From Acidimicrobiales bacterium (GTDB taxonomy: Bacteria; Actinomycetota; Acidimicrobiia; Acidimicrobiales; Iamiaceae), in contig DASZTW010000017.1 in NCBI GenBank assembly GCA_035547835.1, forward strand, positions 1 to 64,000: DNA of 64,000 bases, in the 5' to 3' direction. The position numbers were made by a program, and so were the translations under genes. Of the stretch, positions 59,316-63,941 are shown one piece after another (position 1 is the first letter of the stretch; each line of letters starts with the position of its first letter). The notes beneath the pieces are model-generated. The model ran no database searches. It had not been told where the DNA came from and saw only the letters and a program-made list of their open reading frames with translations.

Positions 59316-59939
59316 TCAGGGCATCAACCGCTCGACGACCCACGGATCGCCGGGCGACGCCCGCCGGTACACGAAGCGGTCGTGGAGCCGGAACGGCTGG
59401 CCCTGCCAGAACTCGATCTCGGCGGGCACCACCCGGTAGCCACCCCAGTGGTCGGGGCGCGCGACGGGGCGACCGTCGAACTTCGCTTCGAGGGCGTCGT
59501 AGCGGGCTTGCAGCGCGGCCCGGTCCGCCACCGGCTCGCTCTGGTCGGAGATCGACGCGGCCAGCTGGCTGCCGCGCAGCCGGGTGTCCCAGTACTGGTC
59601 GGACTCGGCGGCCGGCAACGGCTCGCACCGCCCGGTCACCCGCACCTGGCGGTCGTGGTCGATCCACCCGAACGTGAGGGCGACCCGTGGGTTGGCGGCG
59701 AGCTCACGGCCCTTGCGGCTGCGGTAGTTCGTGAAGAACTCGAAGCCCCGGGCGTCGTGCCCGCGCAGCAGGACGTAGCGCGCCGAGGGCTGCCCACCGG
59801 CACCGACCGTCGACACCACCATCGCCTCGGGGTTGGCGCGCGGCTCGCGGCGCCACGCCTCGTACCACCGGTCGAACTGCTCGATCGGGTCGTCGGCCAG
59901 GTCGGCGCGGCGCAGCGGCGGGTGCGGGAGGTCGACCAC
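59316..59939 (-). CDS. pdxH: Pyridoxamine 5'-phosphate oxidase
   Basis: A 207-residue PNPOx: AMVVSTVGAGGQPSARYVLLRGHDARGFEFFTNYRSRKGRELAANPRVALTFGW is the FMN-binding part, and the C-terminus WGGYRVVPAEIEFWQGQPFRLHDRFVYRR is diagnostic. It makes pyridoxal phosphate. GTG at 59939 follows a TAGGCT -10 (59946-59951) by 6 nt. Confidence 0.92.
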   Translation of the reverse strand: MVDLPHPPLRRADLADDPIEQFDRWYEAWRREPRANPEAMVVSTVGAGGQPSARYVLLRGHDARGFEFFTNYRSRKGRELAANPRVALTFGWIDHDRQVRVTGRCEPLPAAESDQYWDTRLRGSQLAASISDQSEPVADRAALQARYDALEAKFDGRPVARPDHWGGYRVVPAEIEFWQGQPFRLHDRFVYRRASPGDPWVVERLMP

Positions 59940-59998: not shown

Positions 59999-60979
59999 TC
60001 AGCTCTGCTTGAACTTCAGGCCGTACACCTTCTCGAGGCCCAGCAGGCACGGCTCGCGGGTGGGGCACTCGGGCGGGCCGCCCATGGTGAGCTCGTCCTT
60101 CACCTTCGCCAGGTCGGAGATGGTCTTCAGGCCGTACTTCGACGCCGTGTCGGATCGCACGACGTAGACGTTGACGTCGTCGGCCGGTGCCGGCGTCAGC
60201 AACGTGAAGCCCTTCGCCTCGGCCAGCTTCTTGGCGTCGGCCGTGACCGTCGCCAAGTCCTGGGACACCGTGGCCTTCGGGTCGAGGAACGTCAACAGCG
60301 TGGCGGTGAACTCCGGCACGAGATCGAGGCTGCCGTTCTCGAGCGCCGGGAGGTAGACCTCACGGGCACCGATGTTGGGCTTGTTCTCCACGGTGACGCC
60401 GGCCGACTTCAACGCCTCGTAGTAGAGGTCGCCGACGATCTGCGACTCCGGGAAGTTGGCGCTGCCGACCTTGATGTTGCCGGTGGCTGTCAGGTCGCCG
60501 GGGAGCTTGTTGGTCTGCAACCAGTCCTTGGCGACGGCGTCGGCGTCCTGGCCGTCGATCACGACGGACTTCACCATGTTCTGGATGGCGTCGGGCGTGA
60601 TCTTCGCGCTGACGGCGTCGAGCACCTTGGTGACCGCCGGCGTCGCCGCCGACGTGCGGATGGCCGGCACGAAGTGGTCGGGGGCCTGCAGGTGCTTGTC
60701 GTCTTGGAGCACCACCCAGTGGTAGGCCGGGATGTGCCCATCGACCGAGAACAGCACGGCGATGTCGATCGACTTCTGCTTGAGGGCGTCGACCGTGAGG
60801 GGACCACCGCTGTCGAGCGGCTTGAAGTGGAACGTCGCCGCCGCGCCGCCGGTGGAGGTCGCCGCCTTGCTCGATTTGGAACTGGTGCACCCGCTGAGGA
60901 CCATCGCCACGCAGAGGCCGAGCGCGGCCCCAACCGCGAGCGGTCGCCGCCGGCGGGAACCGGATCGGACTTGCATCAT
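59999..60979 (-). CDS. Circularly permuted glycine betaine/osmoprotectant-binding lipoprotein
   Basis: A 326-residue lipoprotein (lipobox VLSGC, Cys31). Family blocks occur in swapped order. Residues 50-155 (FKPLDSGGPLTVDALKQKSIDIAVLFSVDG ... AVAKDWLQ) match the normal C-terminal half of OpuAC/ProX-type binding proteins; residues 169-326 (IKVGSANFPESQIV, NIGAREVYLPALENGSLDLVPEF, GGPPECPT, GLEKVYGLKFK) match the normal N-terminal half. The new ends fall at the usual junction between the halves. ATG at 60979 with GAAAGG upstream. Followed, on the same transcriptional unit order, by permeases located upstream. Confidence 0.88.
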   Translation of the reverse strand: MMQVRSGSRRRRPLAVGAALGLCVAMVLSGCTSSKSSKAATSTGGAAATFHFKPLDSGGPLTVDALKQKSIDIAVLFSVDGHIPAYHWVVLQDDKHLQAPDHFVPAIRTSAATPAVTKVLDAVSAKITPDAIQNMVKSVVIDGQDADAVAKDWLQTNKLPGDLTATGNIKVGSANFPESQIVGDLYYEALKSAGVTVENKPNIGAREVYLPALENGSLDLVPEFTATLLTFLDPKATVSQDLATVTADAKKLAEAKGFTLLTPAPADDVNVYVVRSDTASKYGLKTISDLAKVKDELTMGGPPECPTREPCLLGLEKVYGLKFKQS

Positions 60980-62744: not shown

Positions 62745-63941
62745 GTGATCCGCCTCGAACACGTCACCAAGCGCTACGACGACGGCACGGTCGCGGTCGA
62801 CGAGCTCGACCTGGAGATCCCGACCGGCGAGCTGTGCGTGCTGATCGGTCCCTCCGGTTGCGGCAAGACCACGACGCTGCGGATGGTCAACCGCCTCATC
62901 GAGCCGTCGAGTGGTCGGATCTGGCTCGACGACGAAGACGTCACCCACGTCGACCCCGTCCAGCTGCGGCGCCGGATCGGCTACGTGATCCAACAAGTCG
63001 GCCTTTTCCCGCACCAGACCATCGGGACGAACATCGCCACCGTGCCCCGCCTGCTGGGCTGGGACCGCAAGCGCATCTCCGCCCGCGTCGACGAGCTGCT
63101 CGACCTCGTCAGTCTCGATCCCGCCACGTTCCGCGACCGCTACCCGCACCAGCTGTCGGGTGGGCAACGGCAGCGGGTCGGCGTGGCCCGTGCGCTGGCC
63201 GCCGACCCGCCGGTGCTGTTGATGGACGAGCCCTTCGGCGCCATCGACCCCATCAGCCGCGACCGGTTGCAAAAGGAGTTCCTCCGACTCCAGCACGAGC
63301 TCCGCAAGACGATCGTGTTCGTCACCCACGACATCTCCGAGGCCGTCAAGCTCGGCGACCGCATCGCGATCATGCAGGTCGGTGGTCGCCTCGCCCAGTA
63401 CGACACCCCCTCGGAGATCCTCGGCAACCCGGCCGACGACTTCGTGGCCGAGTTCGTCGGGGCCGACCGTGGGCTCAAGCGGCTCGAGGTCACCGGCATC
63501 TCCGCTGCGCAGCTCGTTTCGCCGCCGGTGGTCACCGCCGCCACCACCGTCGCCGAGGTCCGTGCGCGCCTCAACGGCGACCGCCCGGCCATCGCGCTCG
63601 TGCTCGACGACCGCGGCGGGGTCGAGGGGTGGTTGGGTCGCGACGAGCTCGAGTCGCTCGACGGATCGGGCGCCGGGACGGCAGTCGGTGCGCCGACGGC
63701 GACCCGAGCCGGCCGGTCGCCGACCGTTGGCGAGCACCTCCGGCCGGTCGCTGCCACCGTCGGCGTCGACGATTCGTTGAGGGACGGGCTGTCGGCCCTG
63801 TTCCTGTCCGACGGCGGCTGGGTGCCGGTGGTCGACCGCGAGAACCGCTACGTCGGGGTGCTCACCCCTGACTCCGTGCAGGCAGCCGCGTCCGGCCGTT
63901 CGCCGGACACGTCCTCGGCGGACCCGGCGGCGGCGGACTGA
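62745..63941 (+). CDS. Osmoprotectant ABC transporter ATP-binding protein with CBS domains
   Basis: A 398-residue ATPase: Walker A GPSGCGKTTT (35-44), signature LSGGQRQR, Walker B LLMDEPFGAIDP, then a C-terminal CBS pair (about 250-380; TTVAEVRARLNGDRPAIALVLDDRGG and VGVDDSLRDGLSALFLSDGGWVPVVDRENRYVGVLT). CBS domains in OpuA-type ATPases sense ionic strength or c-di-AMP. GTG at 62745 with GGAGG upstream. Divergent from the two permeases and binding protein. Confidence 0.88.
   Translation: MIRLEHVTKRYDDGTVAVDELDLEIPTGELCVLIGPSGCGKTTTLRMVNRLIEPSSGRIWLDDEDVTHVDPVQLRRRIGYVIQQVGLFPHQTIGTNIATVPRLLGWDRKRISARVDELLDLVSLDPATFRDRYPHQLSGGQRQRVGVARALAADPPVLLMDEPFGAIDPISRDRLQKEFLRLQHELRKTIVFVTHDISEAVKLGDRIAIMQVGGRLAQYDTPSEILGNPADDFVAEFVGADRGLKRLEVTGISAAQLVSPPVVTAATTVAEVRARLNGDRPAIALVLDDRGGVEGWLGRDELESLDGSGAGTAVGAPTATRAGRSPTVGEHLRPVAATVGVDDSLRDGLSALFLSDGGWVPVVDRENRYVGVLTPDSVQAAASGRSPDTSSADPAAAD

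Follow-up and report, generated by a model that had tools for sequence, protein, structure and literature searches.

Recurrent circular permutation, inferred to fall in lobe 2, of predicted Opu/OsmF-type substrate-binding lipoproteins from Actinomycetota

The window analysed here is a 64,000-nucleotide stretch of DNA from an Acidimicrobiales bacterium of the family Iamiaceae. At 59999-60979 it contains a complete open frame on the minus strand (60979 to 59999) with 326 codons and a stop, confirming the open gene of the original prediction. Its 326-aa product is annotated as a circularly permuted (T1) OpuBC-type substrate-binding lipoprotein on the basis of the open frame, the swapped stretches obtained with PF04069 and PDB chains, and an AlphaFold2 model. 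The protein begins with MMQVRSGSRRR, and a basic, hydrophobic signal sequence runs up to the lipobox LSGC (60887-60979, minus strand), a motif that was read by eye without a predictor and whose Cys31 is putatively lipidated; a low-complexity tether follows. The B segment (residues 50-157; 60509-60832, minus strand), normally the C-terminal part, matches positions 161-256 of the PF04069 profile and 157-266 of a canonical profile built from 55 canonical relatives and comprising 266 positions. The A segment (residues 169-326; 60002-60475, minus strand), normally the N-terminal part, matches PF04069 positions 3-148 and canonical positions 1-157. Between the two profile matches, a linker (residues 158-168; 60476-60508, minus strand), with limits that are approximate by a few residues, joins the old C-terminus to the old N-terminus. 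The motif positions, the residue limits of 50-155 and 169-326 and the intervening linker that had been proposed from the letters alone were thus borne out by sequence and profile matches. The T1 cut lies between 'YGLKFK' and 'PLDSGG', and the gene terminates at it with YGLKFKQS. Cys305 and Cys311 in GGPPECPTREPC (60047-60067) are invariant across ten T1 sequences and could form a disulphide in lobe 2, and the invariance of Cys31 in the ten aligned T1 rows arises by construction, the rows having been trimmed to begin at this Cys.

The substrate-binding protein (SBP) gene sits after two permease genes with BPD_transp_1 domains, P2 (61057-61851, minus strand, GTG start assumed; PF00528, E 4.4e-21) and P1 (61845-62633, minus strand; PF00528, E 2e-18), and the gene of a ProV-like ATPase with CBS domains is divergently transcribed (62745-63941, plus strand, GTG start assumed; TIGR01186, ABC_tran and CBS matches). 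The ATPase scored 334.6 bits against NCBIfam TIGR01186 proV, over the cut-off of 326.6, and the adjoining permeases and ATPase recognized in the original prediction were recovered. An adjacent ProV-like ATPase with BPD permeases meets the criterion for an Opu/ProVWX-type importer operon. Directly downstream of the SBP gene lies a pyridoxamine 5'-phosphate oxidase-like gene (59316-59939), which also adjoins the T1 gene at four loci of the same family (L098-L101) and the canonical gene L062.

The whole protein matched PF04069 (OpuAC) at E 3.5e-47 with 161.6 bits, above the gathering threshold of 21.2, in two stretches, of which residues 168-323 correspond to profile positions 2-148. Scanned separately, the A half gave an E-value of 4.8e-28 over positions 3-148 and the upstream B half one of 6.3e-18 over 161-256. 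Positions 161-256 consequently precede 2-148, which is not the profile's own order, and the separate alignment of the halves recommended as a check returned a reversed order. In a phmmer search of all PDB chains, the best match was EgtUC (E 7.6e-25), with residues 171-323 aligned to chain positions 10-165 and residues 63-157 to 176-272; OsmF, Archaeoglobus fulgidus ProX and OpuCC were also matched in two stretches each, only the best of which was given. Chance resemblance was ruled out by the phmmer and PF04069 E-values. Against the canonical profile, the first stretch begins at position 157 and the second finishes at 157, placing the inferred T1 cut almost exactly at 156/157. The proposed circular permutation is supported by all three comparisons.

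Relatives with the same order, a further check proposed at the outset, recur in independent assemblies. The genome searches covered Actinomycetota only, apart from a scan of named genomes and a plasmid collection. A first search found matches in 46 of 99 genomes, the source genome included, and the 30 loci read comprised ten T1 genes (the window gene among them), three with another permuted cut, 14 canonical genes and three contig-end fragments that were T1-like by their ends. T1 occurred in relatives of the same family and order, among them G004, a genome in one contig. Three cuts were distinguished by their canonical profile positions. In T1 genes of the main subfamily with a lipobox, the first stretch starts at 152-158 and the second runs to 153-157; in T2 genes these limits are mostly 118-127 and 123-126, with the cut at 124/125; and in T3 genes they are 188-192 and 190-191. 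The limits vary more in divergent rows (the first stretch starting at 134 in L092, 167 in L094, 161 in L142 and 172 in L141, and the second running to 154 in the last two), and apart from these rows the cuts are conserved within a few residues.

Wider sampling gave further permuted genes. The named-genome scan yielded 26 loci from Actinomycetota MAGs, 11 of them permuted, some of the 26 being the same contigs as other relatives in the set. A phylum-wide sample gave matches at E 1e-30 or better in 125 of 396 genomes, and among the matches listed at least 17 of those 125 had a single permuted match (4 T1, 12 T2 and 1 T3), all 17 loci reading as permuted with the canonical profile. In the family in which T3 was found, 85 of 101 genomes matched, 78 of them with a full-length match in T3 order (row count), and the T3 cut was present in 20 of the 20 loci read, including that of G643; T3 is not peculiar to one genome. 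The plasmid collection contained no record covering 80% of the window protein or the T3 protein. It did hold a Mycobacterium ulcerans plasmid (NZ_CP083743.1) whose annotated glycine betaine SBP matches residues 59-296 of the window protein in one piece, a sign that a named organism may have a T2-permuted protein. Two loci (L096:3584-5662 and L097:3131-5413) encode a T2-permuted SBP together with peptidoglycan-binding and polysaccharide deacetylase domains in one lipoprotein-like chain.

One objection is that two gene fragments were joined in the wrong order during assembly or sequencing. The source assembly is in 22 contigs, the window's own being 365 kb long, and many of the relatives are fragmented MAGs. 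The same in-frame cut, however, recurs in independent assemblies, including the one-contig genomes G004 (T1), G408 (T2) and G643 (T3), and is conserved within a few residues, divergent rows aside. For the permuted group as a whole, an artefact is already refuted by the independent assemblies, and for the window gene it retains next to no chance of being correct. The adjacent fused or misassembled copy that the original prediction had named as a possible source of the swap, or a second copy elsewhere, was likewise ruled out, as no such copy was found in the genome; no other PF04069 gene was detected in the source genome at E 0.001 (assembly 96.7% complete). The halves of the protein are truly swapped, and the arrangement is neither a misassembly nor unique.

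The permuted genes share their surroundings with the canonical ones. In a survey of partner genes at 35 loci, two of which are one gene (L039 and L101), T1, T2, T3 and canonical genes in most cases stood at the end of a gene group comprising an ATPase, two permeases and the SBP. This set was complete at 12 of the 13 distinct T1 loci with a lipobox, the thirteenth (L155) lying on a contig of 5 kb, and also at several T2, one T3 and several canonical loci. No partner gene was found in the available DNA of L155 and L050, and only part of the set was present at L144 and L150. No transporter genes were found near L093, L096 and L097; the sole match near L094 is a distant one, to an ATPase (28% identity). 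L093 (3998-5149) and L094 (3028-4209) are very divergent T1-order relatives from the window's own family that lack a complete importer set nearby and carry an N-terminal hydrophobic stretch in place of the lipobox; they are possibly sensors or orphan binders.

Structure prediction, the remaining check, gave a confident fold: AlphaFold2 with ten T1 sequences reached a pLDDT of 92.0 and a pTM of 0.86. The best fold match in the PDB was Bacillus subtilis OpuAC (2B4L, 2B4M and 3CHG), which aligned in chain order by VIA with Z 17 over 220-222 residues at 14-15% identity, spanning model residues 14-262 of 296. Foldseek gave only modest TM-scores to OpuAC, 0.51-0.55 when taken by query length. For EgtUC and OsmF, which share about 30% identity with the protein, the match was confined to the A half (model residues 135-296, Z about 11; for EgtUC by VIA, Z 11 over 159 residues at 31% identity). 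A full-chain match to OpuAC with a half match to EgtUC and OsmF is expected of a permuted member of the EgtUC/OsmF group. Nearest by sequence are EgtUC, OsmF (YehZ), A. fulgidus ProX and the OpuBC/OpuCC proteins (F-III), which share the two-lobed PF04069 domain; these run A-B, whereas the window protein runs B-A, with both ends inferred to lie in lobe 2. The T3 model was weaker (pLDDT 82.8, pTM 0.72), and its Foldseek list mixed OpuAC and ProX-type chains, the best TM-score by query among these being 0.50.

The match to OpuAC raises the possibility that the window protein is an ordinary member of the known OpuAC topology class. Permutation relationships among the glycine-betaine-binding proteins 2B4L (OpuAC), 1R9L and 1SW1 (A. 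fulgidus ProX) have been published (PMC2395249), and the fold matches imply that OpuAC would be the permuted one relative to 1SW1-type proteins. The end of the OpuAC chain (residue 272), however, aligns with model residue 262, or residue 292 of the protein. This is where T2 cuts, and the T1 end of the window protein comes about 32 residues later; only the first and last aligned residues were reported, so this mapping is consistent rather than exact. A protein cut at 156/157 instead of 124/125 does not have the OpuAC-type topology, in which the chain is cut at the T2 position. By sequence the protein is moreover of EgtUC/OsmF type, sharing about 30% identity with that group and 14-15% with OpuAC, and it groups with OpuBC-type proteins in a tree that included no OpuAC row. 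Membership of the OpuAC class was accordingly given only a slight chance. The original prediction had left open whether such a form was described: permutation among glycine-betaine-binding proteins is on record (PMC2395249), but OpuAC, the permuted protein known so far, is cut elsewhere and comes from a separate, distant subfamily.

The cuts were placed on the fold through EgtUC, in which lobe 1 (D1) comprises residues 233-331 and 445-506 and lobe 2 (D2) residues 341-432 (PMC9732360). T2 maps to 363/364, T1 to about 395 and T3 to 425/426, so that all three cuts are inferred to fall in lobe 2; this mapping and that of the pocket rest on one phmmer alignment. Since the canonical ends lie in lobe 1 and the cuts in lobe 2, the ends of the permuted chain and the lipid anchor would shift to lobe 2. 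The idea that the cuts lie between secondary-structure elements was dropped, as only T2 clearly does so in the T1 model (between helix 257-262 and strand 268-271). The T1 cut touches strands 19-24 and 292-294 of this model, and the T3 position would coincide with a short turn of helix.

The pocket is kept in part. EgtUC F293, T296, E375 and R379 correspond to F224, T227, E304 and R308, whereas K242, Y419 and Y443 are replaced by Ala174, Phe77 and Asp101; the counterpart of the N339/Y341 pair depends on the local alignment, with a two-residue gap. The aromatic cage of the quaternary-amine F-III proteins, formed in EgtUC by F293, N339, Y341, Y419 and Y443, appears only partly retained, with F224 and F77 aromatic, Y443 replaced by Asp101 and N339/Y341 alignment-dependent, and OpuAC has a Trp cage (PMC9732360). 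The score against the OsmF equivalog NF049931 fell short of its cut-off (101.5 against 400 bits). The original description as a glycine betaine/osmoprotectant-binding protein holds as a family label, the cage being kept only in part. In the absence of binding data the ligand is unproven, and betaine binding is not claimed.

How often the permuted order arose was addressed with trees. A tree of 108 distinct rows, auto-labelled as 69 canonical, 21 T2, 17 T1 and 1 T3, needed 14 label changes, and its long-branch permuted rows were poorly placed. Dropping 28 rows, namely 16 long, divergent or poorly placed ones (4 T1, 3 T2, 1 T3 and 8 canonical) and 12 near-duplicates, left an 80-row tree of 49 canonical, 17 T2 and 14 T1 rows, for which L046, auto-labelled T2 since the end of its contig truncates the A segment, was relabelled as the T1 gene it really is. 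This tree needed seven label changes, counts that include losses as well as gains, and its well-supported branches force at least six changes for the canonical label, at least five for T2 and only one for T1. Trees of each half alone needed ten changes each, with at least four forced for T2, and this agreement indicates that the multiple changes are not due to one recombined half. Some pairs of differing order are close, such as L095 (T2) and L062 (canonical) at 69% identity and L116 (T2) and L132 (canonical) at 70%.

A single ancient permutation, followed by reversals, renewed permutations or transfers that produced today's scatter, with the window gene a member of an old clade, would be compatible with one part of these results, in that T1 as one clade in the main subfamily was not rejected (p-AU 0.31). 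Under the model used, the AU test nevertheless rejected T1 and T2 as one clade (p-AU 5e-24, 80-row tree) and T2 alone as one clade (p-AU 6e-6), and three different cuts need further permutations anyway. A second subfamily, from the family of G634, also speaks against it. There, 26 of 35 genomes matched, and T1 order was found in two of the 26 (G634 and G753); the other genomes listed were canonical where both pieces appear, including G799, which carries the same genus label as G634, with A-half identities of up to 82%. A tree of 31 rows, of which 28 are canonical and 3 permuted, places two permuted rows (support of 83/60 for the pair) beside 18 canonical orthologues; the T2 gene L092 is placed apart, and two changes are forced by well-supported branches. 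The T1 cut is less exact here (161 or 172/154). By these trees, the second subfamily is taken to have acquired T1 independently, with canonical orthologues of up to about 80% identity alongside. We regard a single ancient event as very unlikely; more than one origin of the permuted order in Actinomycetota is shown, insofar as gene trees can show it.

The G634 gene also retains a possible trace of its formation. A signal-peptide-like stretch (canonical residues 16-48, 53% identical, E 8e-5) stands directly before B, giving the order leader, B (236-349) and A (70-237) in canonical numbering, which indicates that the mature domain was rearranged behind a retained leader. No fused double SBP that could represent an intermediate was present among the ORFs scanned (0 'multi'), and the DNA examined beside the second-subfamily T1 genes held no leftover half-genes, only chance-level tblastn hits. 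Among the loci examined (up to L157), two canonical SBP genes follow each other on the same strand at L084:148-2235, as permutation through duplication would require. Nei-Gojobori dN/dS lay at 0.39-0.64 for four pairs of T1 genes and at 0.29 for a T3 pair; values below 1 are weak evidence of purifying selection.

We hold with high confidence that the window gene encodes a working lipid-anchored SBP of an Opu/OsmF-type ABC importer, permuted in lobe 2 at T1, although no expression, binding or transport data exist. At the level of predicted proteins and gene trees, the sequences show how the segments are ordered, that the cut is nearly exact and conserved among relatives, that the neighbourhood is shared and that the permuted order has multiple origins. 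Such a protein would shut on a small ligand between its lobes in flytrap fashion and dock on the P1/P2 permeases, with its chain ends and lipid anchor leaving from lobe 2 instead of lobe 1 and with lobe 1 closed by the short linker between the old ends. Its origin may lie in a tandem duplication of the mature domain, or in a comparable rearrangement within it, behind a signal peptide that was retained; the outer halves would then have been lost.

Recurrence itself is well supported; its adaptive reason is not established. Lobe-2 permutation may be a route taken repeatedly by Opu-type proteins of Actinomycetota, with three cuts and several origins, and kept because the anchor moves from lobe 1 to lobe 2, which is inferred to alter the membrane-held lobe or the docking on the asymmetric P1/P2 pair; this proposal is tentative, possible rather than probable. 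The main rival is neutral tolerance, in which lobe 2 accepts new ends, tandem duplication supplies them and the anchor shift has no functional consequence. We give it an even chance. The same neighbourhood and similar partner proteins at canonical, T1, T2 and T3 loci agree with it, as does Treponema TpMglB-2 (Tp0684), a lipid-anchored SBP that is permuted in nature and nevertheless binds its ligand and changes conformation (PMC4990184). The position of all three cuts in lobe 2 is unlike random neutral cutting, albeit without a statistical test and with the reservation that foldability may restrict the sites. TpMglB-2 differs from the window protein in having a Cluster B sugar-binding fold, its permuted part being poorly conserved in sequence, and its authors suggest a link between permutation and anchoring (PMC4990184).

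Natural permutation of SBPs is already known from the glycine-betaine-binding proteins (PMC2395249) and TpMglB-2 (PMC4990184). Recurrent permutation at three lobe-2 sites appears to be new; in the open-access subset of the literature, neither permutation in the OpuBC/OsmF/EgtUC-type group nor the T1 and T3 cuts nor the recurrence was found. The literature cites Fukami-Kobayashi (1999) for 'domain dislocation'. Most descriptions of natural circular permutation concern isolated pairs. Here, one family combines three cuts, shared partner genes and several origins with orthologues of canonical and permuted order that share about 70-80% identity. Profile searches show the permuted genes as ordinary hits, and only a comparison of the two stretches reveals their order. 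The family offers a natural set of rearranged proteins for testing why such swaps succeed, and makes the origin of permutations, the selectable cut sites and the effect of the anchored lobe on ABC import directly testable.
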